From: Methanothrix sp.
GTDB taxonomy: Archaea > Halobacteriota > Methanosarcinia > Methanotrichales > Methanotrichaceae
Direction of reading: 5' to 3'
DNA length: 64,000 nucleotides
Assembly (NCBI GenBank): GCA_029907715.1
Contig: JARYLI010000003.1
Span: 1-64,000, forward strand
Of the stretch, positions 24,385-58,942 are shown piece by piece (position 1 is the stretch's first letter; each line of letters starts with the position of its first letter). The notes under the pieces were generated by a model. It made no database searches, was not told the DNA's origin, and saw only the letters and a program-made list of their open reading frames with translations. The position numbers were made by a program, and so were the translations under genes.

Positions 24385-24545
24385 GGACGGCCTGCAAAAG
24401 CTGATGCGGCGCGCTCATCATCTGATCCTGTTCGCGAAGACATTCATGTATGCGTTCAGCCGGATAAATATGTGCTTCCAGAAGCCAGCCTGCGCAATCT
24501 TCACCTGCCAAACACATGAGAGCGCGTGATTGGAGATGATGCGAT

Positions 24546-24668
24546 CGCTCTTATGTGCGTAGCAACTTGCAGAGCATGCAATGTGGTCGCTGAAAGCATT
24601 CATTTGTCGAAACGAACGCATAGCATGACCCCTGCTCCTTCGGGCAAGTTATCAAATGGATATGAGCG
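24546..24668 (+). mobile_element. MITE family 1, copy R1 (123 bp)
   Basis: The element runs from CGCTCTTATG to GGATATGAGCG and contains the family core GCATAGCATGAC and TTCGGGCAAGTTATCA. It is flanked on both sides by the perfect 8-bp direct repeat GATGCGAT (24538-24545 and 24669-24676), a target site duplication. There is no reading frame. It fills the gap between the export-like gene and the end of the methyltransferase gene. Confidence 0.85.
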
Positions 24669-24680
24669 GATGCGATTTAT

Positions 24681-25469
24681 TCACTCCGGCTGCTTCTCAG
24701 CCAGAGCCTGCAGCCGCATCATCCTGACGTGGATCATGCCATCAGGAGATGGATAACGCTCGATGTAGCGCCCGGCTATCTCCTGAACGAGGTCAGGGCG
24801 CAGATCTGGAGGAAGTCTCTGCAGATAAGGAAGCCATGTGGACCTTATGAACCCCTCGAGCGCATGCCGGCTGTGCACCATATCCTTTGGTATGAGCTTC
24901 ACGCTCACGGTGTGGAGGCCGGCCTCCGGGATCCACCTCTCGTAATCTTCAGGGGTGTAGAAGAAGTAAGGGAATCCGAAGTCTTTGAAGTAAGAGGCAA
25001 AGCGCTCCTCCCTGATCACCTCTGATGTTATATCCAAAAGCTGAGCCGCGTTTCCCCTGCCGCCGCACTGTATGAGCATCCTGCCTCCGGGCACGAGACT
25101 CCTGCATATGCCCCTCAGGACTGAAAGATGATCCTGGATCCAGTGCAGGCATGCGAATGACACCACCATATCGAACTCCTCCTGGAAGTGGAGATCGAGT
25201 GCGTCGCCCTGCTCAAATCTGAGGTTCCTGAAAACATCAGAGGGATGCCTGCTCCTTGCGAAGGAGATCATATCTGCGGAGATGTCTATTCCGAGAACCG
25301 ATCCATCAGGCACGAGCTGTGAGATGCGCGCAGTGACCTTCCCGTCCCCGCACCCGACGTCGAGTATGCGCTCGTCTCCTCTGATCCTCAGCTCGGAGAG
25401 AGCGCTCATGGCCCACTCCTGCTGGGCTGAGGAGCTCCTCTCGTACTCCTCCGGGTCCCATGTGTACAT
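24681..25469 (-). CDS. class I SAM-dependent methyltransferase (trans-aconitate methyltransferase-like)
   Basis: A 262-residue Rossmann methyltransferase. Motif I ILDVGCGDGKVTARI is near residue 35, the acidic end of strand 2 is GIDIS, and FDMVVSFACLHWIQDH is motif IV. The arrangement and the C-terminal RYPSPDGMIHVRMMRLQA resemble trans-aconitate 2-methyltransferases, but the substrate is not known. A TATA box GTATTTATCTGG at about 25493-25504 lies some 25 bases before ATG 25469. That supports this start and a leaderless message rather than the longer frame from 25598. Confidence 0.82.
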   Translation of the reverse strand: MYTWDPEEYERSSSAQQEWAMSALSELRIRGDERILDVGCGDGKVTARISQLVPDGSVLGIDISADMISFARSRHPSDVFRNLRFEQGDALDLHFQEEFDMVVSFACLHWIQDHLSVLRGICRSLVPGGRMLIQCGGRGNAAQLLDITSEVIREERFASYFKDFGFPYFFYTPEDYERWIPEAGLHTVSVKLIPKDMVHSRHALEGFIRSTWLPYLQRLPPDLRPDLVQEIAGRYIERYPSPDGMIHVRMMRLQALAEKQPE

Positions 25470-25632
25470 GATATGCCAGTTCAGACCAGATCCAGATAAA
25501 TACACTGCGATCTGAGCTGCGGGCATGTGTGTAAAGATGGGGGTGTGAAGATCTGGTGCGGATAGCTGAGCACAGAGCTGAATATTTCGGTGCGCCATAA
25601 AGATCTCCTGAACACTCGCCTTATGGCATTAG

Positions 25633-25759
25633 TATTTGCTTGATATCACGAACGTACTTGAGTTACTGATCAAGTGAAGCCGCTTATGGCAAATCGTTCA
25701 TCCAGAAATCTGCCAAGAGGGCCATTTACCTCAACGCATTGAGCATGTTCTGGAATTCA
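25633..25759 (+). repeat. 130-bp dispersed repeat, copy B
   Basis: Partner of 23116-23245. In this copy the stems CTTGA/TCAAG and CTCAA-CGCA-TTGAG are perfect, so small hairpins are kept while loops vary. It lies in the 423-base gap between the methyltransferase and kinase genes. The rest of that gap holds the two gene promoters and nothing else I can name. Confidence 0.75.
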
Positions 25760-25892
25760 ACACAGGATGTCGATTTCTGTGCCTGTATCTGTCTGACTCC
25801 CGGAATGGAGAGATGCTCAAAGATGCAAAAGATTTAGATAGAATGCTGGAATTAAAATATAGATTGGAGAGTGTCACAGTATTTGCTCTGCA

Positions 25893-27692
25893 ATGAAGCA
25901 AGTTTATGATGGATCTGAGGAGGGTGGGGTGCTGCACAGCTATTTGACGTTCCGCCGTGCCCTGATGCTGGGGGCGGCTATCCTGTTCCTCAGATCCGCG
26001 ATTGTTCTCTACCTGGGAGATAATGAGCACCAGCGTGTGATCGTAGATGATATAATATGGCCGGTGGTCAACGGGCTTGCTGCACTCTCTCTCTTCAGAG
26101 CTGCAAGAGCCACAAGATCACTGGATGAGAGGATGTACATCGCATGGGCGTTTTTCGCGGTTGCGCAGATGCTTTATGCCCTTGGGGACGTGCTCTGGAG
26201 CATCCTGGAGGTCGGACTTGGGGAGACGCCATTTCCGTCGGTTGCTGATGGCCCCTATCTCGCTTACTACTTCTTCTTCCTCGTAGGCATCCTTCTGCTC
26301 CCAGCCACGTACCAGAGTGCCTTCGAGCGCCTGAAGTCCATCCTGGACACAGGCATTGTGACGATATTCGCGATCATAGTATTCTGGAGCTTTCTCATCG
26401 CGCCCACGATCGCGACGCTTGAGGAATCGGATCCGCTTGCAAATGCGATTGCAGTCGCGTACCCGGTTGCAGATCTTGTTCTCACATTCTCCATCATCGC
26501 GCTCATCTTCAGAAGAATAGAGCACATAGCCCAGCGACCCATCATGCTCCTGGCGGCAAGTGCTGTCTTCATGATAGTTGCAGACTCGATGTTCATGGTC
26601 GAGGCCCTGAGGGAGACCTATGTTCCCGCAACGCTCAAGGACAGCTTCTGGCTGATCAGCTACATACTCACCGGACTTGCAGGGGTGCTCCAGGTTGAAT
26701 CAGTTGGCGTGCCAGTAAAGAGATCTGCAGAGCGGCCATCACATGGGTTCACATGGCCTCTCTATCTCCCATACATCTGTGCCATCTCGGCATATGCATT
26801 TCTGATCTGGAGCATGGAGCAGGAGGATGTAAATTTGTACATCCGCCAGCACCATCTAGCCGCAGGCGTGGGGATGATAATACTGCTGATAGTGATCAGA
26901 CAGGTAATCGCGATCAAGGAGAACACAATGCTTTACGCGGCTGCCCAGAAAGAGCTGCACCAGAGGATCGCATCGGAGCGTGAGAAGGAGCTTCTCATAA
27001 AAGAGCTTGAGGCCAAGACATCAGAGATGGAGAGGTTCATATACACCGTCTCCCACGACCTCAGATCACCTCTGATCACTGTCAGCGGGTTCCTCGGGTT
27101 CCTCAGGGATGATATCGAGAAGGGCGCCTGGGATAAGGTCAGAAAGGACATCGAGATACTGGAGAGCGCCGTAACGAAGATGGACAGGCTGCTCCAGGAC
27201 ACGCTGGAGCTCAGTCGCATCGGCCGGATGATGAACCCGCCTGAGGACGTGCCGTTCTCTGAGATCGTCAGGGAGGCGCTGGAGCAGACATCTGAGAGGA
27301 TACGGTCCAGGGGAGTGACCGTGGATGTGGCGGAGGACCTGCCAGTCGTCCACGTCGACAGGATGAGAGCTGTGGAGGCGCTCGTCAATCTCATAGAGAA
27401 CAGCGCCAAGTACATGGGTGATCAGAGAGAGCCGCGGATAGAGATCGGCTGCATTAGCGACGGCGAAACGGTATTCTATGTCAAAGATAACGGCATCGGG
27501 ATAGATCCCAAAAACCACCAGAAGATATTCGAGCTCTTCTACAAGGTGGACAACAGATCTGAGGGCACCGGCGCCGGACTGGCCATCGTCAAAAGGATCA
27601 TCGAGGTGCATGGCGGAAGGATATGGATAGAGTCAGAGCTGGGAAAGGGATGTACGGTCTTTTTCACGCTGCCGCTATCGGAAAAATCCTGA
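25893..27692 (+). CDS. membrane sensor histidine kinase
   Basis: A 599-residue sensor. Residues 1-345 hold about nine membrane helices in place of an outer sensor domain. A short coiled coil (about 350-385) leads to a HisKA domain with the phospho-His in VSHDLRSPLITVSGF near residue 392. A HATPase_c domain follows with N box ENSAKYMGD, G1 DNGIGI, and G2 GTGAGLAI. There is no PAS or receiver domain and no response regulator gene next to it. The TATA-like AATTAAAATATAG is at 25850-25862. GTG 25929, preceded by GGAGG, is an alternative start. Confidence 0.88.
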   Translation: MKQVYDGSEEGGVLHSYLTFRRALMLGAAILFLRSAIVLYLGDNEHQRVIVDDIIWPVVNGLAALSLFRAARATRSLDERMYIAWAFFAVAQMLYALGDVLWSILEVGLGETPFPSVADGPYLAYYFFFLVGILLLPATYQSAFERLKSILDTGIVTIFAIIVFWSFLIAPTIATLEESDPLANAIAVAYPVADLVLTFSIIALIFRRIEHIAQRPIMLLAASAVFMIVADSMFMVEALRETYVPATLKDSFWLISYILTGLAGVLQVESVGVPVKRSAERPSHGFTWPLYLPYICAISAYAFLIWSMEQEDVNLYIRQHHLAAGVGMIILLIVIRQVIAIKENTMLYAAAQKELHQRIASEREKELLIKELEAKTSEMERFIYTVSHDLRSPLITVSGFLGFLRDDIEKGAWDKVRKDIEILESAVTKMDRLLQDTLELSRIGRMMNPPEDVPFSEIVREALEQTSERIRSRGVTVDVAEDLPVVHVDRMRAVEALVNLIENSAKYMGDQREPRIEIGCISDGETVFYVKDNGIGIDPKNHQKIFELFYKVDNRSEGTGAGLAIVKRIIEVHGGRIWIESELGKGCTVFFTLPLSEKS

Positions 27693-27776
27693 GCAGCAAG
27701 ATCCCAACATGCTGCACCGCTGATCAGATGTAACGATTTGATTGGCTGCAGAGAAGTCCGAGGCAGTTAACTCCGC

Positions 27777-27908
27777 CGCTCTTATGTCTTCAGCAATCTG
27801 AAGGACATGCAAGCCGGTTGCTGGATGCACTCATTCACTCGCCGGTGGGGGGGGGGCGCATAGCATGACTGGTGCCTCTAAAGGTAAGTTATCACATGGA
27901 TATGAGCG
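27777..27908 (+). mobile_element. MITE family 1, copy R2 (132 bp)
   Basis: It runs from CGCTCTTATG to GATATGAGCG and is flanked by the perfect 8-bp direct repeat AACTCCGC (27769-27776 and 27909-27916). Stem arms CAGCAA and TTGCTG are kept. The middle part found in R3 and R4 is replaced by a run of ten G (27847-27856), a length worth confirming in the raw data. Confidence 0.88.
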
Positions 27909-27967
27909 AACTCCGCACCTCTCTCCAAAGCATCAAAACTCGTGGCGCAGACGCCGGACAGAAGCGC

Positions 27968-28123
27968 TTATCTCACCCTCTCGACATCCTCGGAGCGGCA
28001 TGAGGGGCACTTTGGCCCGACGCCAATTCCCTTGAACCTGTGGCCGCATGAGCGACAGACATAATCGGTAGGGAAGAACGACTCGGGGTCACCCATATCC
28101 GGAGGGCCTCCAACTGCGCACAT
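27968..28123 (-). CDS. 51-residue zinc-ribbon protein
   Basis: This small gene encodes MCAVGGPPDMGDPESFFPTD followed by a zinc ribbon with CRSCGHRFKGIG and CPSCRS, then a basic end. The four cysteines are spaced as a rubredoxin/zinc-ribbon knuckle pair. GAGGTGA stands 6-7 bases before ATG 28123 and a TATA box, AAGTATATTTAATG, is at about 28155-28168, so it has a full set of expression signals. Such proteins may bind nucleic acid or act as small metal proteins; the role is unknown. Confidence 0.8.
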   Translation of the reverse strand: MCAVGGPPDMGDPESFFPTDYVCRSCGHRFKGIGVGPKCPSCRSEDVERVR

Positions 28124-28312
28124 GAAATCACCTCAAAGATATATCATCAAAAATCATTAAATATACTTTTCGGAGTCTGTCCGGTCGATGCCAGGGATGA
28201 TGCTACGAGCTTTCTCCATGCAGAAGACCGGATGCAAAGCTTGATTTTGTGGACCCGGGAACATCTTTTCCTGCGAAATCGATTTAAGAGATGAGGCAGA
28301 AAACAAAGATAG

Positions 28313-29494
28313 ATGAGCGACTTCTCCGCAAATCAGTTTCTTGAGATGGCCGGCACCCCTCCTCTGGACATAGAGATATGCGATGTGACGCTGAGGGATG
28401 GGGAACAGATGCCAGGGGTCGTGTTCAAGCCTGAGGAGAAGCTCGAGATAGCCAGGATGCTCGACGAGATCGGCGTTGAGATCATAGAGGCCGGATTTCC
28501 GGTGGTCTCAAAGAGCGAGAAGAACGCGGTGAAAGAGGTCTGCAATCTCGGCCTGAACGCGAAGATATCCGCCCTCTCCAGGTCCAGGCAGTCTGATGTC
28601 GATGCAGCCATCGATTGCGGTGTTGATATGGTGAGCGTCTTCATAGCGACATCCGATCTCCACCTCAAATACAAGCTGCACATGACATGCGCAGAGGCGA
28701 TAAGGTGCGCGCTTGAGACGGTTGAGTACGCAAAGGATCATGGCTTGATAGTGAGATTCTCAGCTGAGGATGCGACACGAACGGATTTCAACACGCTCAA
28801 AAAGCTATACAAAAAAGCAGAGGAGTACCACGCTGACTATGTGAGCGTGGCCGACACGGTCGGCATAATGAACCCCAGAACGATGTACTACATGATCAGC
28901 GAGATCAGGAAGATTGTGAGCGTGCCGATATGCGTTCACTGCCACGACGATCTCGGTCTCGCGCTGGCAAACACCCTTGCCGGCGCAGAGGCCGGTGCGA
29001 AGCAGCTCCACACCACCGTCAACGGCATCGGCGAGAGGAGCGGGAACACGCCACTTGAGGAGCTGCTCGTCAACCTCCGCCTTCACTACGGCATAGACCG
29101 CTACGACCTGGGCAGGCTCAAGTCAATATCCTCTGTGGTTGAGAGGTATTCGGGCGTGCCGGTGGCAAAGAACAAGGCCGTCGTCGGGGAGAACGCATTT
29201 GCCCACGAATCCGGGATCCATGTTGCCGCGGTCCTTGAGGAGCCCAGGACCTATGAGCTCTACTCCCCTGAGATGGTGGGGGCTGAGAGGAGGATCATCA
29301 TCGGGAAGCACACAGGAGCCAAGGCGCTCAAGTACATCACGAAGAAGATGGGCTATGACCTGGAGAAAAAGGATCTCTGCCTCCTTGCTGAGAAGGTGAA
29401 GACCGCGAGCGAGTTCAAGAGACCGATAACATGCGATGAGCTGAGAAGGCTGATCCTCGATCTCAACATAGAGTTTGTGTACAACGGTCCGTAA
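28313..29494 (+). CDS. aksA: homocitrate synthase (coenzyme B pathway)
   Basis: A 393-residue member of the isopropylmalate/homocitrate synthase family. The start of the barrel is ICDVTLRDGEQMPGVVF (metal and 2-oxo-acid site), HCHDDLGLALAN carries the metal-binding His pair, and NGIGERSGNTPLEE follows. The C-terminal subdomain is shorter than in LeuA and lacks its leucine-binding domain, as in AksA. AksA condenses acetyl-CoA with 2-oxoglutarate and its longer homologues on the way to the 7-mercaptoheptanoyl chain of coenzyme B. The assignment over citramalate synthase is by sequence resemblance. A TATA box (GATTTAAGAG, 28281-28290) suggests a leaderless message. Confidence 0.88.
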   Translation: MSDFSANQFLEMAGTPPLDIEICDVTLRDGEQMPGVVFKPEEKLEIARMLDEIGVEIIEAGFPVVSKSEKNAVKEVCNLGLNAKISALSRSRQSDVDAAIDCGVDMVSVFIATSDLHLKYKLHMTCAEAIRCALETVEYAKDHGLIVRFSAEDATRTDFNTLKKLYKKAEEYHADYVSVADTVGIMNPRTMYYMISEIRKIVSVPICVHCHDDLGLALANTLAGAEAGAKQLHTTVNGIGERSGNTPLEELLVNLRLHYGIDRYDLGRLKSISSVVERYSGVPVAKNKAVVGENAFAHESGIHVAAVLEEPRTYELYSPEMVGAERRIIIGKHTGAKALKYITKKMGYDLEKKDLCLLAEKVKTASEFKRPITCDELRRLILDLNIEFVYNGP

Positions 29495-29564
29495 TGGGAG
29501 ACAATAATCACGATCTTCTGTGGCACCTCTCTGAAATCCTGGTTTTCCATCAGCGGAGAAATAC

Positions 29565-31490
29565 ATGAAGAAAGCGATGAGCAACGTTGACGTGGCTGCT
29601 ATCGCGGCTGAGCTCCAGTCCCGTATTGTCGGTGGATTCTTTGGCAAGGCCTACCAGAGTTCTGGAGATGCAATCTGGCTCACGGTCCAGGCGCGCGAGG
29701 GCAGGCTCGATATAATTCTGGAGGCGGGAAGAAGGGCGCATGTCACCAGGAGAGAAAGGGTGGTGGGCAGAACGCCCCCGCAGTTCCCTGCGATGCTCCG
29801 CTCACGTCTCTCCGGCGGGAGAATCGTGAGCGTTGAGCAGCACGACTTCGATAGGGTGCTGGAGATATGTGTTGAAAGAGCAGAAGGAAGATATCGCATT
29901 GTTGTAGAACTCTTCCCGAAGGGTAACATACTGCTTCTCGATGAGGATATGAGGATCATACTCCCGCTCAGGCCGATGAGCTTCAGGGACAGGAAGCTGA
30001 TCGCTGGCGAGAAGTATGCCTATCATGCCGGGGCAGAGGATCCGAGAAGGGTGTCGATCGAGAGGCTCAGGGAGATCCTGCGCGGCTCAGACACAGATCT
30101 CGTGAGAGCTCTTGTTCGCAACCTGAACATGGGCGGGACATACGGAGAGGAGGTCTGCCTCAGGGCAGGGGTGGAGAAGAATATCCCTGCAGCAGATCTA
30201 TCTGAGGAGGAGATCTCAAGGGTGCATTCGGCTCTGAGAGATGTGTTCGATCTCAGGGAGATCAGGCCTCAGATAGTTTACATGGATGGGGCGCCGTTTG
30301 ATGTGATCCCCTTCCCTCTTGAGGTTTACAGGGGACTCGAGTCGAGATCCTTCGAGAGGTTCAGCGATGCGCTCGATGAGTTCTTCGTGGCAGAGCCGGA
30401 GATGCCAAAACCCAGCGCTCTTGAGAGGAGGCTTGAGCTTCAGAGGGCTGCTGTCGATGAGCTCAGAGCGAGGGAGACCCAGATGGCCTCGATGGGAGAT
30501 CTCATATACCAGCGGTATTCTGAGATCGACTCGATTCTGAAGGCGATAGCAGGCGCAAGGGAGAAGGGGCTCTCATACAGTGAGATCTGGGAGAGGATAC
30601 GGAGCTCTGGGCAGTCTGCCATAAAATCTCTGGATTACAGCGGCGAGATGGTCGTCGAGCTTGATGGGGTCGCTCTGGAGCTGAACGCGGGTCTCACAGT
30701 GCCCCAGAACGCGGGAAGGTACTACGAGCGTGCGAAGGAGCTGGCGAAGAAGGCCGCAGGAGCAGAGGAGGCTCTCCGAAAGACGGAAGAGCTCCTCCAG
30801 CGTGGAGAGGAGCGCAGAAGGTCCCCAGTTTTGAAGCGAAGGCAGAAACCGAGATGGTTCGAGAGGTTCAGGTGGTTCTTCTCATCAGACGGATTCCTGG
30901 TCATAGGCGGCAGGGATGCGGATGGCAACGAGGAGATATACCTCAAGTACCTGGAGAAGAGGGATCTTGCGCTTCACACAGACTACCCTGGAGCGCCGCT
31001 GACGGTGATAAAGACAGAGGGGCGGGAGGTGCCGGAGCGCACCGTGCAGGAGGCAGCAGAGTTCGCTGTGAGCTACAGCAACCTCTGGAGGGAGGGCGTG
31101 GCATCGGGCGACTGTTACTTGGTCAGAGGTGAGCAGGTCACAAAGACGCCCGAGCACGGTGAGTTCCTCCGGAAGGGTGCGTTTGTAGTCCGCGGGGAGC
31201 GCAGGTATCTGAGAGATGTCCCTCTGGGGGTTGCCCTGGCGATCGCCGATGGATCCCTGATAGGCGGGCCGGTCTCTGCTGTGAGATCCAAAAGTTCGGG
31301 GGCGATCGAGCTGGAGCCAGGCGAGTACATGCCTGATGATCTCGCGAAGATGATCTACAGGCATCTCCTCGAGATCTGCGAGGACAGGAGGTACCTGAAG
31401 GCGATCGCGTCCCCTGATAAGATAGTGGCATTCCTGCCTCCCGGGGGATCCAGGATCAGGCGGTTCGATGTGAAGGAGCTCGGCGTTTAG
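29565..31490 (+). CDS. rqcH: ribosome quality control protein RqcH (NFACT family)
   Basis: A 641-residue NFACT protein, the archaeal relative of Rqc2/NEMF. It has an NFACT-N domain (residues about 1-180), a helix-hairpin-helix region, a long coiled coil (about 285-420, rich in Glu, Arg and Lys) and an NFACT-R domain from KPRWFERFRWFFSSDGFLVI, including KYLEKRDLALHTD and AVSYSNLWREG. The family binds obstructed large subunits and helps add C-terminal tails to stalled chains. The N-terminal part VAAIAAELQSRIVGGFFGKA matches the family start. It follows aksA by 70 bases. Confidence 0.9.
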   Translation: MKKAMSNVDVAAIAAELQSRIVGGFFGKAYQSSGDAIWLTVQAREGRLDIILEAGRRAHVTRRERVVGRTPPQFPAMLRSRLSGGRIVSVEQHDFDRVLEICVERAEGRYRIVVELFPKGNILLLDEDMRIILPLRPMSFRDRKLIAGEKYAYHAGAEDPRRVSIERLREILRGSDTDLVRALVRNLNMGGTYGEEVCLRAGVEKNIPAADLSEEEISRVHSALRDVFDLREIRPQIVYMDGAPFDVIPFPLEVYRGLESRSFERFSDALDEFFVAEPEMPKPSALERRLELQRAAVDELRARETQMASMGDLIYQRYSEIDSILKAIAGAREKGLSYSEIWERIRSSGQSAIKSLDYSGEMVVELDGVALELNAGLTVPQNAGRYYERAKELAKKAAGAEEALRKTEELLQRGEERRRSPVLKRRQKPRWFERFRWFFSSDGFLVIGGRDADGNEEIYLKYLEKRDLALHTDYPGAPLTVIKTEGREVPERTVQEAAEFAVSYSNLWREGVASGDCYLVRGEQVTKTPEHGEFLRKGAFVVRGERRYLRDVPLGVALAIADGSLIGGPVSAVRSKSSGAIELEPGEYMPDDLAKMIYRHLLEICEDRRYLKAIASPDKIVAFLPPGGSRIRRFDVKELGV

Positions 31491-31555
31491 GGAGCGTGTA
31501 TCTCGTCAATCGCCTTAACCGAAAAACTTATATTCGACGAAAGCCGTAAGGATGA

Positions 31556-31625
31556 TTGGGCAAAAGTCGGAGATTGTTTTTCCTCCCTCCTACATCCCAC
31601 AACGGCTTTTGCTCGCACTTCTCTT
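31556..31625 (+). ncRNA. candidate small structured RNA
   Basis: In a 339-base gap without genes, a good BRE/TATA (CCGAAAAACTTATATTCG, centred near 31530) points to a start about 25 bases on. There a hairpin begins: GCAAAAGTCG (31560-31569) pairs with CGGCTTTTGC (31603-31612), ten pairs including one G-U. An inner GGAG/CTCC helix may extend it, and a pyrimidine-rich tail follows. No coding frame explains it. It is a prediction from promoter position and folding only. Confidence 0.4.
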
Positions 31626-31829
31626 CTTTCTCACAAGCTTCGAAGGCGCGTGATTCCAGATGCGATGTCAGATCAGCGGAGATGTGATTGGGTGTGTCGA
31701 TATCTCTCCCGTACTGCTGAGCGGGGTAGGCCAGATCTGTCGTAATGCATCAACAGGTCGCATCAATCCCTCTCTTCCGTATCCTTCTCCATACAGCTTA
31801 AAATACCAGATCCGTCAATCTTCCTCTGG

Positions 31830-32450
31830 ATGAGAGAGCTGACGTCTTTGGTGCTCGCGGCTGCGATCCTCGCAGCGTTTGCATGCGTGATTGTTCTTGG
31901 CGACAGGGCAGAATCGACATCAGTAGATGAGTACATAAGCGCCTCACGGGGTGAAGTCAAGCCTGTCTTCGACCCGAGGTTCCCAGCTGACCCCAGAAGT
32001 TCCAGAAAGCTCTGGGAGGCGAGGAAGGATTCAAGCGCAGATTCTGCAAGCGCAGATTCTGAAATGGAAGCGCCCCCTGAGAACATATCAGAAGCATCCG
32101 CTGCGCCTGTCGTTGAGGAAAAGGCGCCGGATATCTCCGGCAGGCTGAGCTTCGTGCTGAAGGACCTGACATCGAAGAGAGTGGAGCTGCAGCTCTACCG
32201 GCTTGATGATACTCTCTTCGGCCATGGCACCATATCCGAGAACAGCTCGACCCAGCGGGTATCCGCAGTAGGAGACATCAGGGGTAACGCGCTCGAGCTG
32301 GATCTCATCTCCGAATACACCATCTACAGGCTCAAGATCGATTCGAGCAAAAGCCCCATGACAGGCACCTTCACAGCATACAGAGCTGATGCATCATCGT
32401 GGCCTGGTGTGGTGTACCAGGAGGGCGCCGAAGGAGCCGGCATCGCATAA
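31830..32450 (+). CDS. secreted or anchored hypothetical protein, C-terminal domain shared with the 57.6-kb protein
   Basis: A 206-residue protein with a hydrophobic N-terminal segment (SLVLAAAILAAFACVIVLG) that can be a signal peptide or anchor. A Ser/Glu/Ala-rich linker (about 60-95) is followed by a beta-rich domain, DISGRLSFVLKDL to the end. That domain has the same order of motifs (SGxxSxxL, VELxLY, GxGxI, LDLI, GTxT) as the C-terminal domain of the protein encoded at 57612-58253. TATA-like GCTTAAAATACC (31795-31806) lies about 25 bases before the ATG, so it is probably leaderless. Function unknown. Confidence 0.75.
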   Translation: MRELTSLVLAAAILAAFACVIVLGDRAESTSVDEYISASRGEVKPVFDPRFPADPRSSRKLWEARKDSSADSASADSEMEAPPENISEASAAPVVEEKAPDISGRLSFVLKDLTSKRVELQLYRLDDTLFGHGTISENSSTQRVSAVGDIRGNALELDLISEYTIYRLKIDSSKSPMTGTFTAYRADASSWPGVVYQEGAEGAGIA

Positions 32451-32649
32451 GAGGCGGTTTCTGACTTCCAGGCACCTCTGCATGCGCCGCTCTTGGCGCA
32501 CATGATGCCGGTGGATCCGAGAGAGACCAGGTTCAGCCACCCACATAGATCCGAATGCAAAACCGCGCTCCTGTCATTCGTGGATCCACAGGACGAAGAT
32601 AAATGGCTGCCAGCAGCGATCGCGTGCTAAAGATGCTGATTTTAAATTA

Positions 32650-32823
32650 CGCTCTTATGTATTCAGCAACTTGGAGGTCATGCAGGCCGGTTGCTGAGTG
32701 CACTCATTCGCTCGCCAGGCCTTCGACTTCGTCGAAACTCTTCGACGCAGTCGGAGATAAGTCGAAACGGGCGAATAGCATGACTGATGCCTCTTCGGGC
32801 AAGTTATCAGATGGATAAGAGCA
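32650..32823 (+). mobile_element. MITE family 1, copy R3 (174 bp)
   Basis: The longest intact copy. It runs from CGCTCTTATG to GGATAAGAGCA and is flanked by the perfect 8-bp direct repeat TTAAATTA (32642-32649 and 32824-32831). It carries a hairpin CAGCAAC/GGTTGCTG, a middle block of TTCGAC/GTCGAA stems, and the core AATAGCATGACTGATGCC. It occupies the 434-base gap between the secreted protein and speA; I see no gene there. Confidence 0.9.
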
Positions 32824-32884
32824 TTAAATTATTCGTGGATCACAGGAGGATGGATGGCTGCCAGAGGTGGCAGACCACCGATCC

Positions 32885-38090: not shown

Positions 38091-38132
38091 ATACCAGAGC
38101 GTCAGCCGGGCTTAAAAAGGTGGGCCATAACC

Positions 38133-42963: not shown

Positions 42964-43078
42964 CGCTCTTATCCATGATGACCTGCCCGTAGAGGCGCCG
43001 GTACTGCTATGCGCGCCCTGCGGATGAGTTGCGACCGGCAACCAGATCTCATGTACAATCTGCTGATGCGAAATGCCT
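42964..43078 (-). mobile_element. MITE family 1, copy R6 (degenerate)
   Basis: Four bases after the trpC stop the sequence CGCTCTTATCC begins an inverted copy of the family. Its reverse complement gives GCGCATAGCA, GGCGCCTCTACGGGCAGGTCATC and GGATAAGAGCG. Further on, GGCAACCAGAT and ATGTACA match copy R4. The far end has decayed and no target duplication remains. It may contribute the 3' end of the trp mRNA. Confidence 0.7.
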
Positions 43079-45249: not shown

Positions 45250-45253
45250 TCCT

Positions 45254-46231: not shown

Positions 46232-46276
46232 CCAGCTTCACAGAATAGAGCTGTTTCGGCAACAGGCGGGTCTGCC

Positions 46277-48385: not shown

Positions 48386-48448
48386 TGGATATATCAGTAA
48401 AGTGCAGAATGCGAAACGCACCGGCCTGAAGATCTCGCGTCACGGATC

Positions 48449-49612: not shown

Positions 49613-49867
49613 CAGCTCACCTTTAACAATACATCCTAATAGGTTGATGTGATTTAACTCTTTCACATCTCTCGAAATTCTGTTCTGATTGTACCGCTCA
49701 GCTCACCCTTACAGAATCCGAACCGCTGCAGAAGATTGCAATCCGCCGATACGAAATTCCATCGCATTCGAACTCAGATGACCATCAAGGCCTGAATCTC
49801 CTCGGGATGCAAAGCGGTCGGAGACCGTGACTTCCTCTCCTGAAAGTTTGCGCACTGCCATCCCCTA

Positions 49868-50830: not shown

Positions 50831-52035
50831 GCGATAACCTCCTCGTAGATCTTCAGAGTATTCTCAGCGGCTTTCCTCCAGGTGAACATCTCCAGGACCC
50901 GCTCCCTTGCATTCCTTCCCCACTCCCTGAGCCGCTCCCGATCTTCGAGAGCGAGATTGACGCCCCATGCGATATCGTTCGGATCTCGAGCATTCACATG
51001 AACGCCTGTCGGCTTCTCAGTCGCAGGGTTCATGACGATCTCCCTCAAACCGCTGACGCCGCTGGCCCCGACGACAGAGGCGCGTTCCATCGATGCTGCC
51101 TCGAGCGCCACAATCCCGAACGGCTCATAGGTGCTGGGGAATATGCAGAGGTCCGCGAGCGCGTAATGATACACCTTCTCCTGTGGGGAGAGGAAGCGCT
51201 CGACGAGAATAACACCGCCGAGCCTCTCAGCCTCTGATCTCACATGATCGATTAGGGATCCGCTGCCCACCACGAGAAGCTTGACGTCAGGATTATTCCT
51301 GCGTATTGCGGGCAGAGCAGCAAGAAGCTGGGAGACGCCCTTGACAGGCTCGAGCCTTCCGAGGAACAGAAGGACTGTATCAGATTCCTTCAGGCCATAA
51401 CTCCTCCTGAGCATCTCGAGCCGCTCTGGCTTCACAGCAGATGGGTCGAAGAGCTTAGTATCCACGCCGTGATAACACACCCTTATCTTATCCGCCGGAA
51501 CCCCGAGACCCTCGAGCTCCCCCTTCATCGCCTCTGAGACCGTGAGCACGAGATCTGCGAGCCTGGCGCCCTTCACCTCTAGAGATACGAGCTGTGGATT
51601 CGGATGCTCGGAGCGCCCGACCTCGGTGCAGTGGACATGGTATATCATTGGCATGATCTGACGCAGCGCCATGCCTGCGGGCAGAGCGAGCCAGTCGTGT
51701 GCAACACAGATGTCAAAAGGACCTGAGTCCCTCAAACGGGCTGCAGCCAGCTGGTTGTAACTAAGGAGGCTGTTCAGGAAATCCAGGCCCGTGCCCCATG
51801 AGAGGGTCTCTTTTGAATAGAAGATCTCCAGAGCATCGCCCAGGGGAAGAGGCATCTCCCTGAACGCCTTCACGCCCTTCTTCGTCTCCCTCCTCTTCAG
51901 ATCCGGCCTGCCCATTGTGAACACAGAGACCTTATGCCCCATCGAGGCGATCTCTCTGGATATCGAATCGACATAAACTCCAAGGCCTCCGTAGACCAGC
52001 GGCGGGTACTCTGTGCTCAGATATGCTATATCCAT
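50818..52035 (-). CDS. GT4/GT5-like glycogen synthase-type glycosyltransferase
   Basis: A 405-residue GT-B enzyme that starts MDIAYLSTEYPPLVYGGLGV, the starch synthase-like catalytic N-terminus with a glycine loop. DICVAHDWLALPAGM, LLFLGRLEPVKGVSQLLAA and FPSTYEPFGIVALEAASM (EX7E) follow. It probably adds glucose from an NDP-sugar to an alpha-glucan. ATG 52035 overlaps the stop of the GT3 gene by one base (TGATG), so translation is coupled; its own stop overlaps the galT N-terminal coding region. Confidence 0.86.
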   Translation of the reverse strand: MDIAYLSTEYPPLVYGGLGVYVDSISREIASMGHKVSVFTMGRPDLKRRETKKGVKAFREMPLPLGDALEIFYSKETLSWGTGLDFLNSLLSYNQLAAARLRDSGPFDICVAHDWLALPAGMALRQIMPMIYHVHCTEVGRSEHPNPQLVSLEVKGARLADLVLTVSEAMKGELEGLGVPADKIRVCYHGVDTKLFDPSAVKPERLEMLRRSYGLKESDTVLLFLGRLEPVKGVSQLLAALPAIRRNNPDVKLLVVGSGSLIDHVRSEAERLGGVILVERFLSPQEKVYHYALADLCIFPSTYEPFGIVALEAASMERASVVGASGVSGLREIVMNPATEKPTGVHVNARDPNDIAWGVNLALEDRERLREWGRNARERVLEMFTWRKAAENTLKIYEEVIAYRS

Positions 52036-53831
52036 CACACCACCAGATTCCTGTAGTACTCCAGAACAGGCTCCTTCCAGTCCATGTACTTTGCAAGCGC
52101 AAACGACTCCTCGCAGAGGAGCCTGTACTCGATCTGATCTGCCACCTGGCTCCAGGTGAAGTAATCGAGCGCGAGGGCGTAATCGAGCACGGTCTCACTG
52201 TACGTCTGCTCTATGTTATCGACCACAACAACCCCACCCATGCCTGTTGTCAGCCTCTTTATCTTCTTCAGAGCATCGCTGAAGCCGCAGGCTCTGCTGA
52301 CTATGCTCGGTGTACCCTCCCTCCCGGCCTCGAGCCCTGTGAGAAGGAAGGGCTCATACTGTGAGGGGAAGATGCCTGCAACACAGCCCGCCATGATCTC
52401 GTCCGCCCTCATGTTCAGCCCGCCGTCATCCGGTCCGACCCATTGAGGGTAGAGGATCGCAGATACTATGCGGTTTCCTGATACGAGCCTCCACGGCTCC
52501 AGGCCCCTCTCCTGTATCATCTTGTAGAGCCTGTGCTCCTCCCACACCAGCACCTCTGGCGTCAGGTTTATCGGGAATCCCTGCGGGAGCCTGTCCTTCT
52601 GCTTCGGGCCGTGCGCCGCTATGAGAAAGCAGGCGACCCTGAGCTTCTCGGCAAACCTCTGCTTCATCGCTCTGTGTTTGAGCAGATGGTCCTGAAGGAC
52701 CAGGGCATCAAGGAGCTGCGGATATCCCTTGTTCTCTATCTCTATCCTTGATATGGTGAATATGGGTATTATGTTCTCAGGATCGATCTTCTCCCCGCCG
52801 TAGATGTTGTAGAGTGTGTCTGAGAGGAACTTCTGTATCCTAGCCCTGCAGCGGTTCTTCTTCTCCCAGTCTATGTGGTCCTCCTCCACCTCTATCCCGT
52901 TTCTTATGACGATGCCCTTCAGATCGTGGAAGAGCATCGCCTCCTTCATCGTGGAGTCGCCGACGAAGGTCACGATATCCGCATACCTCGCCAGGCCCTC
53001 CAGTGCCGCCATCGAGACAGGGGTGTTCGGTGGCCAGTGTTTCTCGTTCCTGGCGATCATCTCCAGGGACCTGTACCCTGCTGCCCTCCCGGGAACCGTG
53101 GCATGAAGCGTCGCCATCGTGCGGACGGGCTGGCCGAGAGCCTTCAGACGCGCAACCGCATAGAAGACTCCGAACTCGTGGCAGTGGAGCGATATTCTTA
53201 TCTTCGGGAGAACCGAGCGCGCGAACTCCGACACCGCCTTATCAGCGTATTTCTCTGCAGGCTCCTCGGCCATCGACTTCAGCACACGCACGAGCTCTGA
53301 GATCGCATAGGAGAGGCATAGGTAGTGATTGTACTCGGGAGCGTTGCTGAGGCGCTCGTACTTGAGCGAGTCCAGCCCCACAAGCCTCCATGCCTCCTCC
53401 TTTATCGCGTTCGTGAGCGTCATCTCCCTGGAGTCCCTTCGAACTATGCAGCTGTCATAGTAATGCGTATCGAAGAGTATGTAGCCAACAGGAACATCAT
53501 GATAAACCGCCTGGCACGATACTGATTTTATCCCAAGGGATTCGAGCCGCTCAAGGGCTGTTTTGATCTCGTCGCCCATGCTCAGAGGCTCGAGGCCGGA
53601 TATGTCCGTAACACGCATCTTTCCCCTGTTCCAGTCTGCGCCAGCTGTGGGGAAGTACGGGCCAGCGACGAGGATCCTGATATCGTTCTCGATATCGCCG
53701 CTGCTGATCAGCTTTGCAAGGGTCCTGGCCTCTGCATCTATCACATTCCATATGCCGCCCATCTTGTTTGAGACTGGGCCCGCCTCCTCTCCTGCGATCA
53801 CTATCCATCTCTGTATCATGATCTCCCTCAT
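52035..53831 (-). CDS. glycogen synthase, GT3 (eukaryotic-type) family
   Basis: A 598-residue GT3-like glycogen synthase. The N-terminal GPVSNKMGGIWNVI sugar-nucleotide loop is followed by LHCHEFGVFYAVARL and ATLHATVPGRAAGY. TISRIEIENKGYPQLLDAL and FPSQYEPFLLTGLEAGREGTPS are diagnostic of GT3 rather than of GlgA (GT5). It elongates alpha-1,4-glucan from UDP-glucose in the family. The start overlaps the KaiC-like gene as ATGA, and the next GT4 gene overlaps its stop, which makes a tight four-gene unit. Confidence 0.88.
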   Translation of the reverse strand: MREIMIQRWIVIAGEEAGPVSNKMGGIWNVIDAEARTLAKLISSGDIENDIRILVAGPYFPTAGADWNRGKMRVTDISGLEPLSMGDEIKTALERLESLGIKSVSCQAVYHDVPVGYILFDTHYYDSCIVRRDSREMTLTNAIKEEAWRLVGLDSLKYERLSNAPEYNHYLCLSYAISELVRVLKSMAEEPAEKYADKAVSEFARSVLPKIRISLHCHEFGVFYAVARLKALGQPVRTMATLHATVPGRAAGYRSLEMIARNEKHWPPNTPVSMAALEGLARYADIVTFVGDSTMKEAMLFHDLKGIVIRNGIEVEEDHIDWEKKNRCRARIQKFLSDTLYNIYGGEKIDPENIIPIFTISRIEIENKGYPQLLDALVLQDHLLKHRAMKQRFAEKLRVACFLIAAHGPKQKDRLPQGFPINLTPEVLVWEEHRLYKMIQERGLEPWRLVSGNRIVSAILYPQWVGPDDGGLNMRADEIMAGCVAGIFPSQYEPFLLTGLEAGREGTPSIVSRACGFSDALKKIKRLTTGMGGVVVVDNIEQTYSETVLDYALALDYFTWSQVADQIEYRLLCEESFALAKYMDWKEPVLEYYRNLVV

Positions 53832-54574
53832 GGATAGGGCGAGAGGCCCGAGACCGCCATCCCATCATCCGATATGTCCAGAACCCTTATGCTGTTCGAT
53901 ATCTTCGAGCCCCGCATCTTCATGACATAAATGGAGCGCACAAGTGCGTTGCCGATTCTGTCCCTTCTGAGCATGGTGCACGAATCAGCGCCGTACTCCA
54001 GTATCTGGTTCATGCCGAACGCGGTGCCAATCGTTATGACGGACGTCGCCTTTGTGGCCCTCAGACTCGAGAAGAGATCGTCTGCCAGCGACCTTATCTT
54101 GAATGGCGCCTGAACCGCGTAGAAGAACGCCATCAGATCATCGACGAAAACCCTCTGTGGGTTCTCCTCCTTCACCTTCCGCTCTACCAGCTTTCTGAAG
54201 TTGATGAGAAAATCCACTGGATCCAGATCTATGCTCTTCTGAAGCCTGAGCACCGGATCTGTGACGTCGACTATGACAAGCTTTTTCTCCTCTTCCAGCT
54301 TCCACAGATCCCAGTTGAAGGAGGAGTACATCTCCCTCTTGAGCGACTCTGCGCTCTCGGAGGGCGTTATTATCATCCCCTTGTCGCCCATCCTGATGCC
54401 CTCATAAATGAACTGGGTGGCAAATACCGTCTTTCCCGTGCCGGAGCCGCCGGTGACGGTATTGACTGTACCCCTGTTGAAGCCGCCATTTACAAGCTCG
54501 TCAAAGCCTGGTATGCCGGACCTGACTTTGGTGTACTTCTTGGCGGCAACCGCCTCAACATCATGCGTATCCAC
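53828..54574 (-). CDS. single-domain KaiC-like ATPase
   Basis: A 248-residue RecA-fold KaiC-domain protein. RSGIPGFDELVNGGFNRGTV is the family N-terminus, Walker A GGSGTGKT is near residue 42, the catalytic Glu region is TPSESAESLKREM, and Walker B is RVFVDDLMAFF near residue 144. It is a single domain, unlike two-domain cyanobacterial KaiC. Archaeal members often act in signalling through autophosphorylation. Being first in a translationally coupled glycogen synthase operon, it may sense ATP or energy state and control polyglucose synthesis. GTG 54574, 7 bases after GGAGG, is preferred over GTG 54580. Confidence 0.85.
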   Translation of the reverse strand: MDTHDVEAVAAKKYTKVRSGIPGFDELVNGGFNRGTVNTVTGGSGTGKTVFATQFIYEGIRMGDKGMIITPSESAESLKREMYSSFNWDLWKLEEEKKLVIVDVTDPVLRLQKSIDLDPVDFLINFRKLVERKVKEENPQRVFVDDLMAFFYAVQAPFKIRSLADDLFSSLRATKATSVITIGTAFGMNQILEYGADSCTMLRRDRIGNALVRSIYVMKMRGSKISNSIRVLDISDDGMAVSGLSPYP

Positions 54575-54625
54575 AGACACTCCTCCTCTACATCCTCAGG
54601 GTCTGTAGTACTTAGTTTTTCCGAT

Positions 54626-54777
54626 CGCTCTTATCCCCCTGATAACTTGCAAAAGAAGCACCAGCCCTGATATGCGCACGTTTCGACTTATCTTCGACTG
54701 CGTTGAAAACCTTGAGAGTGAAGAGGTCCTTCCAGCAACCAGATTGCATGCACATAAGTTGCTGAGCACTAAGAGCG
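54626..54777 (-). mobile_element. MITE family 1, copy R4 (152 bp, inverted)
   Basis: On the minus strand it runs from CGCTCTTAGTG to GGATAAGAGCG and carries CAGCAAC/GGTTGCTG and AGATAAGTCGAAACG as in R3. It is flanked by the perfect 8-bp direct repeat TTTCCGAT (54618-54625 and 54778-54785). It sits 44 bases upstream of the coding start of the KaiC-like gene, so that gene's promoter is either inside it or very close. Confidence 0.88.
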
Positions 54778-54812
54778 TTTCCGATGCAATAACAGCGTGC
54801 GGATTTATATAC

Positions 54813-55424
54813 TCAACCTGGCTCGCCTCTGCAGAGCGGGACACGGTGAGCCCCCTCCCTATCGTGAACTATGCACACGCCTGTGGGGCTCTCCGGTCGG
54901 TCCGCAGCCGCAAATCCGGAGAATCTCGATCTGGCCTCCCGCTCCTCCCGTATCTCTGAGATGAGACGTCTCTTCAGCTCCTGAGCGATATGCAGCGCCT
55001 CTTCATCGTCCATCTCCATCCCCAGACCCCTGCACTCTGACACACAGAGCTCATCGCCGTCAAGATAGAATGGATATGTCCTGCATATATCAGGGCGCGC
55101 CAGGTATATACTGCAGGATCCCGACGCAGCATCGTAGTAAGCGCAGCCATTTTCACTGCGCCTGAGCATCCACTCGAGCGTGTGGAAGTTTCCTTCCGCG
55201 TCCCAGACTCCGGCCTTCGGCGGCTCGACCACCTCCAGCCACGGCTGGTCTGTGTGAGATATGATCCGCCTCACTTCAGAGGGGAAGAGCAGGACCTCGG
55301 CATCCGGGCCCCTGCAGCAGTCGCCGCAGCGCTGACACCTGAACCCCACCGCCTTTATCCTCTCGGCCAGCGCCTCAACCGATATCCTGCCTGCAATCTC
55401 GAGATCGATAATCTCATTAATCAT
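54813..55424 (-). CDS. YkgJ-family CxxCxxCC metal-binding protein
   Basis: A 203-residue member of the YkgJ family. The cluster FRCQRCGDCCRG is near residue 28 and further cysteines follow in GCAYYDAASGSCSIYLARPDICRTYP. The family is thought to bind zinc or iron-sulfur, with no proven reaction. The C-terminal 50 residues, rich in Arg and Glu, lie outside the domain. Its start overlaps the guaA stop as ATGA, so the two are translated together. Confidence 0.86.
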   Translation of the reverse strand: MINEIIDLEIAGRISVEALAERIKAVGFRCQRCGDCCRGPDAEVLLFPSEVRRIISHTDQPWLEVVEPPKAGVWDAEGNFHTLEWMLRRSENGCAYYDAASGSCSIYLARPDICRTYPFYLDGDELCVSECRGLGMEMDDEEALHIAQELKRRLISEIREEREARSRFSGFAAADRPESPTGVCIVHDREGAHRVPLCRGEPG

Positions 55425-55966
55425 CTCCTGCAGATCTCCAGGAAGTTATCGAACACCTTCTCCCCGTGCTCCGTATGCGCGACCTCCGGGTGCCACTGGA
55501 CGCCGTAAAGCGGCCTGCTCTCGTGACAGATCGCTTCCATCTCGCAGATCGACGAGCGCGCGATGACCCTGAATTCCCTCGGACAGACGGTCACCTGATC
55601 CGCATGCGATGCCCATGCCATGAACCTGCGTGGCATCCCCCTCAGAATACCATCCTCATCCAGGACCTCTATCTCGACGTTCGCATACCCTCCGATCCTG
55701 CCGGTCTCGACTTTGCCCCCAAAGGTCACGGCCATTATCTGCAGTCCGAGACATATGCCGAGAACAGGGATATCCAGCATTCGCAGGTACTCTGAGCACC
55801 TCCCCGCTCTCTCCATTGAGGGTCCCCCGCCGAGTATCAGGCCGTCTGCGACGATCTCCTCAACAGGCGTCTCGTTTGAGACAATCCTGGTCTCAACCTT
55901 CTCCCTTATGCTTCTGTGTATAAGATGATTGAACTGGCCGTAGTTGTTGACCACGATTATCTTCAT
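55421..55966 (-). CDS. guaA: GMP synthase glutaminase subunit (archaeal GuaA subunit A)
   Basis: A 181-residue class I glutamine amidotransferase. MKIIVVNNYGQFNHLIHRSI is the archaeal start, and the nucleophile Cys is in VLGICLGLQIMA near residue 76. HADQV and GVQWHPEVAHTEHG (His, Glu) complete the triad. In archaea it is a separate chain that supplies ammonia to the PP-ATPase subunit GuaAB, here not adjacent. ATG 55966 is chosen over the frame to 56062. It is divergent from the phosphoglycerate mutase gene with 110 bases between starts. Confidence 0.92.
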   Translation of the reverse strand: MKIIVVNNYGQFNHLIHRSIREKVETRIVSNETPVEEIVADGLILGGGPSMERAGRCSEYLRMLDIPVLGICLGLQIMAVTFGGKVETGRIGGYANVEIEVLDEDGILRGMPRRFMAWASHADQVTVCPREFRVIARSSICEMEAICHESRPLYGVQWHPEVAHTEHGEKVFDNFLEICRR

Positions 55967-56076
55967 CCGAGCTTTACTATGAGGTTTTGAAGATAACCTT
56001 TGTGCTCTCCATTCCGGTACGCCCATGTTTCCGCCCGCAACCACTAAAAAGCCTGGGGACAAACCCGGCTGGCATC

Positions 56077-57594
56077 ATGAGGCCGGTGGTTCTTATAATA
56101 ATGGACGGCTACGGGCTCTCCGAGGAGAAAGAGGGCAATGCAGTGGCAGGCGCCCGTAAGCCAAACCTGGACAGGCTTGAATCAATCTATCCCCACACAT
56201 CTCTTGGCGCATCAGGGCTCGATGTGGGGCTTCCCAGAGGGCAGATGGGAAACTCTGAGGTTGGTCACCTGAACCTTGGCGCGGGAAGGATTGTCTACCA
56301 GGATTACACACGCATAAGCCTGGCCATCGAGCAGAACAGGCTGAAGGATGTGAAGCAGCTTGTTGATGCGATGGTGAATGCGAGGGACTCGGGGAGAAAC
56401 CTGCACCTGATCGGCCTCCTCTCAGATGGCGGCGTTCACAGCCACATCACACACCTCTTCGCGCTTCTCGACATGGCAAAGGAGCTTGGGGTGGAGAGAG
56501 TTTATGTGCACCCCATACTCGATGGCAGGGACGTTCCACCGAGGAGCGCACTGATCTATGTCTCACAGCTCGAGGATAAGCTCGCCCGGATCGGCATCGG
56601 CAGAGTCGCCACCATATCCGGTCGGTATTATGCGATGGACAGGGATAAGCGATGGGATCGCACTGAGGCTGCTTACAGGGCCATGACCGAGGGTATGGGG
56701 ATGCATGCTGCCAGTGCAGAGGAGGCGGTCCGCATCGGATACGCCCGGGGCGAAACCGATGAGTTTTTAAAGCCAACCGTTATCGATCCGCATGGGCTTG
56801 TCCGTGAGGGGGACAGCATAATCTTCTTCAACTTCAGGCCAGATCGCGCACGCCAGATAACCAGAGCTTTCGTGCAGCCCGATTTCAGGGAGTTTGAGCG
56901 CAGGTATCTCAGACCGTTTTTTGTCTGCATGACGCAGTACGATGAGAGCATCGATGCTCCGGTCGCGTTTCCTCCAGAGTACCTGAAGGAGACGCTGGGC
57001 GAGGTTCTGAGCAAAGCTGGCCTCAGGCAGCTCAGGATAGCGGAGACTGAGAAGTATGCGCATGTCACGTACTTCTTCAATGGCGGGCAGGAGGAGCCGT
57101 TTCCCGGCGAGGACAGGATTCTGATACCATCTCCCAGGATACCGACATATGATCTGAAGCCTGAGATGTCAGCGCCAGAGGTCACAGCCACGGTTGTAGA
57201 CCGCATCAGGTCCGGGGTATATGATGTTGTGATCATGAACTACGCCAACCCTGATATGGTCGGGCACACCGGTGTATACGAGGCTGCTGTGCGTGCCGTT
57301 GAGGCTGTCGATCGCGGCGTTGGCACTGTCGTCGATGAGGTTCTCTCCAGAGGTGGGATTGCTCTCATAACCTCAGATCATGGGAATGCGGAGAAGATGG
57401 TGGAGCGGAGCACAGGAGAGCCGCACACGGCGCACACAACAAACAGAGTGCCGTTCATACTGGTCGGCTGCGATCGCGTCAGGATGCTCAGGGACGACGG
57501 GATCCTCGCGGATGTCGCGCCCACGATGCTCGATCTGCTTGGGATAGAAAAACCTGAATCGATGAGCGGAAGATCTCTCATAAAAAAAGATTGA
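56077..57594 (+). CDS. gpmI: 2,3-bisphosphoglycerate-independent phosphoglycerate mutase
   Basis: A 505-residue alkaline phosphatase-fold enzyme interconverting 3- and 2-phosphoglycerate. IIMDGYGLSEEKEGNA holds the first metal Asp, QMGNSEVGHLNLGAGR the phospho-Ser near residue 60, and HPILDGRDVPPRSA, SGRYYAMDRDKRWDR and FFNFRPDRARQITRAF the substrate site. MVGHTGVYEAA and ITSDHGNAEKM bind the metals. This is the long bacterial-type GpmI rather than the short archaeal ApgM. TATA-like CACTAAAAAGCC at 56042-56053 suggests a nearly leaderless message. Confidence 0.95.
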   Translation: MRPVVLIIMDGYGLSEEKEGNAVAGARKPNLDRLESIYPHTSLGASGLDVGLPRGQMGNSEVGHLNLGAGRIVYQDYTRISLAIEQNRLKDVKQLVDAMVNARDSGRNLHLIGLLSDGGVHSHITHLFALLDMAKELGVERVYVHPILDGRDVPPRSALIYVSQLEDKLARIGIGRVATISGRYYAMDRDKRWDRTEAAYRAMTEGMGMHAASAEEAVRIGYARGETDEFLKPTVIDPHGLVREGDSIIFFNFRPDRARQITRAFVQPDFREFERRYLRPFFVCMTQYDESIDAPVAFPPEYLKETLGEVLSKAGLRQLRIAETEKYAHVTYFFNGGQEEPFPGEDRILIPSPRIPTYDLKPEMSAPEVTATVVDRIRSGVYDVVIMNYANPDMVGHTGVYEAAVRAVEAVDRGVGTVVDEVLSRGGIALITSDHGNAEKMVERSTGEPHTAHTTNRVPFILVGCDRVRMLRDDGILADVAPTMLDLLGIEKPESMSGRSLIKKD

Positions 57595-57611
57595 ATCAAA
57601 AGGGTTGAGCC

Positions 57612-58253
57612 TCACGTGTGCACTACATCAGTGACGGTGCCCGTGCCGGTCACGAGAGCTGCATCTCCATTGGTGCCGAACCTGCTGTAGCTCCCTGATA
57701 TCGTGTTGTTCTCCTGCACCAGGGTCAGCTTGTATAGCACATCCTCTCTGTACTTCTCACCGTCGAAGACCTGGATCAGGTCGAGGCGCACATCTTCTCC
57801 CACTGAGCCCCTGGCCTTGAGCGGGATCGTCGAGTTCCCCTCGATAAGGCTGCCCGTACCGTAAAATACCGTGCCAACAGGATACAGCAGAAGCTCCACA
57901 TGTCTGCCGTCAGATAGGTTCATGCTCCAGCTTCCGCTCAGGTTGATCTGAGCCCGCTGCTTTACAGTATCGACACTCTCTTCAGTCGTGTTGGTCTCAT
58001 TTGCTGCAGAAGCATTGCCCGACCCGGTGGTCGTCCTTACAGGCCCTGGCTCCGGCATCGACATGTCTGGCTTTGTCACGGGTTTCGGCATGCCCATATT
58101 CGGCCTCTCAAAGCCGACTGGGGTGCCTGTATCAGAGCCTATTTCATACCCACCAAGCCAGTTCACGCCGCCTGTCCCTGTGGGACACCCAGCATGAGCA
58201 GCTCCGGCGAGCGCAAAAAGCATGAGCAGAACCGATATCGCTATTATGCGCAT
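57612..58253 (-). CDS. secreted hypothetical protein, paralogous domain to the 31.8-kb protein
   Basis: A 213-residue protein with the signal peptide MRIIAISVLLMLFALAGAAH and a Cys near residue 22. A Pro/Met/Lys-rich segment and a Ser/Thr/Asn linker with several NxT sites follow. The C-terminal beta domain begins NLSGSWSMNLSDGRHVELLLYP and carries GTGSLIEGN, LDLIQV and NTISGSY, in the order seen in the protein at 31830-32450. TATA GCTTTAAAGCC (58271-58282) lies about 25 bases before ATG 58253, so it is leaderless. Likely an outer surface protein of unknown role. Confidence 0.78.
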   Translation of the reverse strand: MRIIAISVLLMLFALAGAAHAGCPTGTGGVNWLGGYEIGSDTGTPVGFERPNMGMPKPVTKPDMSMPEPGPVRTTTGSGNASAANETNTTEESVDTVKQRAQINLSGSWSMNLSDGRHVELLLYPVGTVFYGTGSLIEGNSTIPLKARGSVGEDVRLDLIQVFDGEKYREDVLYKLTLVQENNTISGSYSRFGTNGDAALVTGTGTVTDVVHT

Positions 58254-58942
58254 GGTCTCCAATCATACCCTTCAGGCTTTAAAGCTTGCCATCCGCTCTG
58301 CACGCTTGGAAACCCGCATGCTACAGCAGGGGCACGCCAAAAGAATGAAAGCATCAAAGCGTGTGGATTCGTGCAATTCGTGATGGCAGTCGATCTCTTT
58401 CATGGTAATGCAAGGGCAATTCATTTGTCATCGATTAAGGATTTTCTGCAAATATATTGACCATGAAATTTGACAAATTGAGATCTCCCCATAGTGGAGA
58501 GTTTGATTCAAATCGACCGCCTGTGGACTTGAGTCCTGATAGCAGTGCTGAGGCGAGATAAGACTATTATAGTATTCCGCATAAGTTGATATAATATCAC
58601 ATGTCACATAAAATCATCTATGAAATATGACATATCCAGTAGCTTTTAAATGGATTTACATGAAGTGGCGCAAAGAACTATAATCCCTCGCTAGGCTTCG
58701 ACTACGTCGAAGATAAGTCGAAACGAGAGCATAGCATGACTGCTCTCTGCGGGCAGGTCATCGGCTGGATAAGAGCGAAAGCGCAAAGGCTCGTGTCCGC
58801 ATATCCGAGACCTGAGGTGACTCCGAGTCTCCGGTGAGCTGCATGCCCTATCGTCCATCACATATCTGGTGCCCCGTCAAATCGGATGATCCTCAGGAAG
58901 ATATTAATACGTCTTCACAAAAGAGTCACACCAGGTTGCATC
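58254..58942. other. 689-base gap with a truncated MITE and AT-rich DNA
   Basis: No gene is supported. It contains a small hairpin TCTCC-CCATAGT-GGAGA (about 58484-58500) and an AT-rich tract (58560-58660) with ATGTCA/TGACAT arms. It also holds the TATA-like GCTTTTAAATGG at 58642-58653, the truncated family-1 element at 58686-58777, and the EcfT gene promoter AGATATTAATACG near 58898-58910. Confidence 0.5.
58686..58777 (+). mobile_element. MITE family 1, copy R5 (left end missing)
   Basis: It begins within the middle block (TTCGACTACGTCGAAGATAAGTC) and runs through GAGCATAGCATGACTG and GGGCAGGTCATC to GGATAAGAGCG. The CGCTCTTAT end and hairpin 1 are gone, and no flanking direct repeat exists, as expected for a deletion derivative. 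Confidence 0.75.

Follow-up and report, generated by a model that had tools for sequence, protein, structure and literature searches.

A MITE family of Methanothrix, probably moved in trans by an IS1595-family transposase

The small repeats in the 64,000-nucleotide stretch of Methanothrix DNA analysed here (the window) are a family of MITEs, that is, non-autonomous DNA transposons. We consider it highly likely that this genus-wide family was moved in trans by an IS1595-family transposase, as the layout of the MITE ends and the length of their duplications suggest. The insertion sequence (IS) that would have supplied the enzyme appears to be dead or lost in the six genus genomes examined, so that the family may be stranded or may depend on an unsampled copy.

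Copies, ends and distribution of the family

The first-pass annotation had described a six-copy family, four intact members of which each sit between a private perfect 8-bp repeat, and the coordinates, ends and repeats of these four copies are all as it gave them (Table 1). Both of its decayed copies are real as well and are recovered by R1, a sequence-only model of the MITE that we used for the genome counts and for decayed copies. Its copy number is too low, however, both for the genome (see below) and for the window, which holds at least eight copies, four intact and four decayed. Copy lengths of 109-201 bp are consistent with its statement that the elements encode nothing.

Table 1. MITE copies in the window, with their target-site duplications (TSDs) or matches to the sequence model.
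Feature	Position	Strand	Description	TSD or model match
MITE copy 1	24546..24668	+	123 bp	GATGCGAT at 24538-24545 and 24669-24676
MITE copy 2	27777..27908	+	132 bp	AACTCCGC
MITE copy 3	32650..32823	+	174 bp, long subtype with TCGA-rich module	TTAAATTA
MITE copy 4	54626..54777	-	152 bp	TTTCCGAT
Decayed MITE copy	42964..43065	-	R end intact, L end lost	Sequence-model match
Left-truncated MITE copy	58686..58777	+	Truncated by second repeat family (58606-58683)	Model match at 58718-58777
Additional decayed MITE copy	24418..24524	-		Sequence-model match, 31.1 bits, E 1.2e-8
Additional decayed MITE copy	17881..17983	+		Sequence-model match, 31.0 bits, E 1.3e-8

We counted 299 occurrences of the terminal motif CGCTCTTAT in the 2.0-Mb genome, versus 14 of the reversed motif. 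CGCTCTTAT forms the outer part of a two-part end of 24 bp, the inner part of which is AACTTG (CGCTCTTATGTATTCAGCAACTTG and CGCTCTTATCCATCTGATAACTTG; pattern CGCTCTTATG(T/C)AT...AACTTG), and the left and right ends match each other at 17 of 24 positions as terminal inverted repeats. The elements are about 124 bp long, with longer subtypes of up to about 200 bp, and fall into several subfamilies, to all of which both ends are common. The TCGA-rich module of the longer subtypes is found almost exclusively inside MITEs in a 464-kb sample, which consists of the window and 20 stretches picked for holding the motif and is therefore enriched for copies. The window copy at 54626-54777 differs from an orthologous copy (L203) by about 28 bp of this module, indicating that the module was gained or lost in place.

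The first-pass annotation had proposed a search of the whole genome and of related Methanothrix genomes, and this search extended the family across the genus: among the matches listed, R1 gave at least 95 in the window's own genome (G000) and between 23 and at least 96 in each of the other five genus genomes (at least about 95 in three of them, 52 and 23 in the remaining two). In 31 genomes of other genera, R1 found no match, and among the 6 + 31 genomes examined the family is confined to the six of the genus.

Evidence for transposition

A query built by joining the sequences on either side of the four intact window copies was searched against the genus genomes. In the sister species G005, which is about 91-95% identical to the window in most aligned stretches, the sites of copies 1 and 2 are clean empty sites, with a single GATGCGAT and a single AACTCTGC, respectively. 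Relatives lack copy 3, but the locus is rearranged there and therefore uninformative, and the site of copy 4 is occupied in G005 too, by a copy that is about 28 bp shorter. Additional empty sites between G000 and G005 are seen in both directions. The G005 orthologue of the decayed remnant at 42964-43065 carries a further MITE inside it, the empty target of which is found at 43021-43028 of the window. In addition, a MITE in contig C6 of G000 (113949-114072), flanked by the duplication TAAGGGTA, splits an IS256-type transposase gene, the flanks of which, when joined across the MITE, read in frame and align with the uninterrupted homologue from G001.

Similarly, 44 end-pairs lying 60-450 bp apart in the 464-kb sample are bordered by 8-bp repeats that are perfect in 37 cases and differ at no more than one base in the others, versus one such pair and no perfect repeat in the reversed-motif control; the matching of the 8-bp flanks thus holds in additional copies. 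Agreement between the two flanks, taken position by position, is high over exactly eight bases and drops sharply on either side. The target preference is palindromic: A/T occupies the four positions around each edge, with G immediately outside. Only 6 of the 44 insertions lie inside ORFs of 200 aa or more, though 73% of the sequence consists of such ORFs. Taken together, the target-site duplications, empty sites, split gene, target pattern and avoidance of ORFs establish transposition, which is how the first-pass annotation had read the repeats. MITEs are also found in one another's company: at locus L165 of G005 (1960-2202), one lies inside or against another, and its duplication TAAGAGCG falls within the end of the older copy.

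The candidate mover and its rivals

Broken or partial copies of an IS1595-family element are present in G000, G001 and G005, and a search for the PF12762 domain gave a match in a single genus genome out of six, that of the window. The reading frames of these remnants match PF12760 (3.2e-7, zinc ribbon) and PF12762 (3.8e-14, DDE_Tnp_IS1595), as well as the NCBI model NF033547 (IS1595) with 78.7 bits at a cut-off of 75, and the gene is broken by a frameshift. One end of the remnant, CGCTCATCACCTCATAACAACTTA, is set by the point at which homology stops sharply in several copies whose flanks differ, and the other is CGCTCATATTGATTTAGCGACTTA or CGCTCTTATTGATCTAGCGAGTTT. Compared with the MITE ends over 24 positions, 17-18 match at one end and 15 at the other, whereas about 54 of 200,000 random genomic 24-mers scored 15-18. 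The ends of both kinds of element begin with CGCTC(A/T)T (positions 1-7) and have, at positions 19-23, an (A/G)ACTT-type motif, which is replaced by GAGTT in one copy; the last base of the inner motif differs, being AACTTG in the MITE versus (A/G)ACTTA in IS1595. One IS1595 copy, on contig C100 of G005, has AGCACTTA on both sides as a perfect 8-bp duplication, the only copy in which this was seen. Duplications of 8 bp are usual for IS1595 members (PMC8101967), and those of ISApl4 are A/T-rich (PMC12561309).

Because of the common end layout and the same duplication length, we prefer IS1595 acting in trans as the mover. An IS1595-family transposase supplied in trans would act on the 24-bp two-part ends of the MITE and cut at CGCTC, which would give rise to the 8-bp duplication of targets that tend to have A/T at their edges. 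The homology between the MITE and IS1595 is limited to the ends and thus does not show descent of the MITE by internal deletion; archaeal MITEs and their IS partners generally have only their borders in common (PMC3852290). The first-pass annotation had suggested looking for a full IS with the MITE ends and 8-bp duplications, and an element with the same kind of ends was indeed found, but in broken copies only: none of the six genus genomes contains an intact IS1595 transposase, and no IS1595 match exists in the one-contig genome G002, despite the many MITEs there. Five of the six genomes, that of the window among them, consist of several or many contigs, and an intact IS present in multiple copies could thus have been missed.

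These same observations, namely a genus with no intact IS1595 gene in six genomes, a one-contig genome with many MITEs and no IS1595 match, and a similarity limited to the ends, would also fit a different lost or unsampled IS with an IS1595-like end as the mover, the IS1595 remnants being bystanders. We regard this as unlikely, since among the IS types of the clade that were examined, only IS1595 combines the two-part end, the right spacing and the 8-bp duplication, whereas the clade's ISL3, ISH1-like and IS5-group elements have ends that agree with those of the MITE at 3-10 of 24 positions. The ends of ISL3 elements resemble GGCTCTT. ISL3 was rejected as a partner, as no ISL3 transposase is present in the genus and the ISL3 of a sister genus ends in GGCTCCTCGC. 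IS256 was likewise set aside: it is found in G000 and G001, but has no CGCTCTTAT ends of its own in either, and one of its genes is itself a MITE target. An IS5-type partner was considered because of a 1269-bp piece in contig C12 of G000 that is bounded by CGCTCTTAT on each side and contains an IS5-type transposase. However, where this transposase has intact relatives in other genera, these terminate in repeats resembling GAGGATTCC, the sequence of the IS5-group ends, and as GAGGATTCC ends lie inside the 1269 bp, the piece is a MITE interrupted by an unrelated IS5-group element. G002 contains a multi-copy, 988-bp ISH1-like IS5 element (L083, 1123-2110), which was rejected as well: although it generates 8-bp duplications, the agreement of its ends (TGCTGTGTTGGATAA) with those of the MITE is limited to 7-10 of 24 positions. 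The 464-kb sample and about 300 kb of G005 contained no long elements (451-6000 bp) with both MITE ends and a perfect duplication, and neither MITE end pattern matched in viral contigs. In contig C1 of G002, matches near 1642790, 1649675 and 1656560 have a constant spacing of 6885 bp, which suggests a triplicated 6.9-kb segment.

A sub-terminal hairpin of the MITE (TTCAGCAAC/GGTTGCTGAA) contains a further, inverted occurrence of the inner end motif, and its reuse of this motif makes a putative role as a binding site as good an explanation as a role in an RNA. One might speculate that the hairpin is a working part, acting as a second transposase-binding site or as a regulator of transposition, and that, throughout the genus, the family has survived the loss of its own transposase by making use of an IS1595 enzyme that is rare or arrives from outside; we give this combination little credence. 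The first-pass annotation had pointed to a strongly kept internal structure and had suggested that the RNA or DNA fold matters. In 87% of cells the hairpin is indeed formed, but compensatory change does not rise clearly above shuffled controls, and the importance of the fold finds no support in covariation. Of the ten pairs of the hairpin, one is changed in both partners, from A-U to G-C in 10 sequences, and neither the number of covarying pairs nor the pair types exceed those of the shuffles. That the repeats are instead a structured element of RNA or DNA (REP/ERIC-like or regulatory) that was retained because of its fold and whose function includes its spread is highly improbable: the frequency of the hairpin, the one doubly changed pair and the strongly intergenic position of the copies would fit it, but the covariation term of RNAalifold over 37 copies is about zero (at -8.8 kcal/mol), the pair counts and types are no higher than in shuffles, single copies fold with z-scores of -0.3 to -2.3, the window has no Rfam match other than 16S rRNA, and a transposase-binding site would explain why the hairpin carries the inner end motif.

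Relatives of the family and neighbouring repeats

The first-pass annotation was not aware of any described family with such ends, and no earlier description of a Methanothrix or Methanosaeta MITE was found in the papers searched. A close counterpart comes from Haloquadratum walsbyi, in which Kamoun et al. (2013, Table 4) tied a MITE of 165 bp, with 25-bp inverted repeats, 8-bp duplications and 7 copies, to ISHwa6, a member of the IS1595 family (PMC3852290). The Methanothrix family is of the same kind, being archaeal, with 8-bp duplications and an IS1595-family partner, but in another lineage, at a higher copy number and with a decayed partner: it resides in another host class, reaches at least 95 copies per genome, among those listed, in several species, and its partner is known from broken copies alone. 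The same study lists 19 orphan 'MITE-like' archaeal repeats, the partner of which is unknown or possibly lost (PMC3852290). These are similarly short, repeated and bounded by inverted repeats, sometimes with duplications, whereas for the Methanothrix family a partner family has been identified from remnants. The IS1595 family comprises the groups ISPna2, ISH4, IS1016, IS1595, ISSod11, ISNwi1 and ISNha5. Its members (PMC8101967) and the remnants described here have a transposase with a zinc ribbon and a DDE_Tnp_IS1595 domain and make 8-bp duplications, whereas the MITE is without a transposase. The ends of ISApl4 from the IS1016 group, GGGGCTGTACTAGA (PMC12561309), are unlike the CGCTC(A/T)T ends found here.

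The family is thus not a new kind of system. Our results name a probable source for a very common repeat of the genus that otherwise confuses annotation and assembly, and provide a case of an archaeal MITE present at high copy number in several species while the transposase has decayed. The insertion differences between sister species can be used as markers.

Two further repeats were seen in contact with the MITEs. At locus L024 (880-1233), a MITE copy carries an insert that is bounded by CATCGGTTAAG...CTTAACCGATG and apparently has a duplication of 11 bp, AGGGAGGTTGC; the insert is possibly a third small element family. A second repeat, CACATAAAATCATCTATGAARTATGACATATCC...GATTTACATGAAGTGRCGCAAAG, adjoins the truncated MITE of the window at 58606-58683 and is also present within L035 (3680-4075) and L226 (1365-1975), as an insertion into a MITE and into an IS1595 copy; it has the appearance of a further small mobile repeat.
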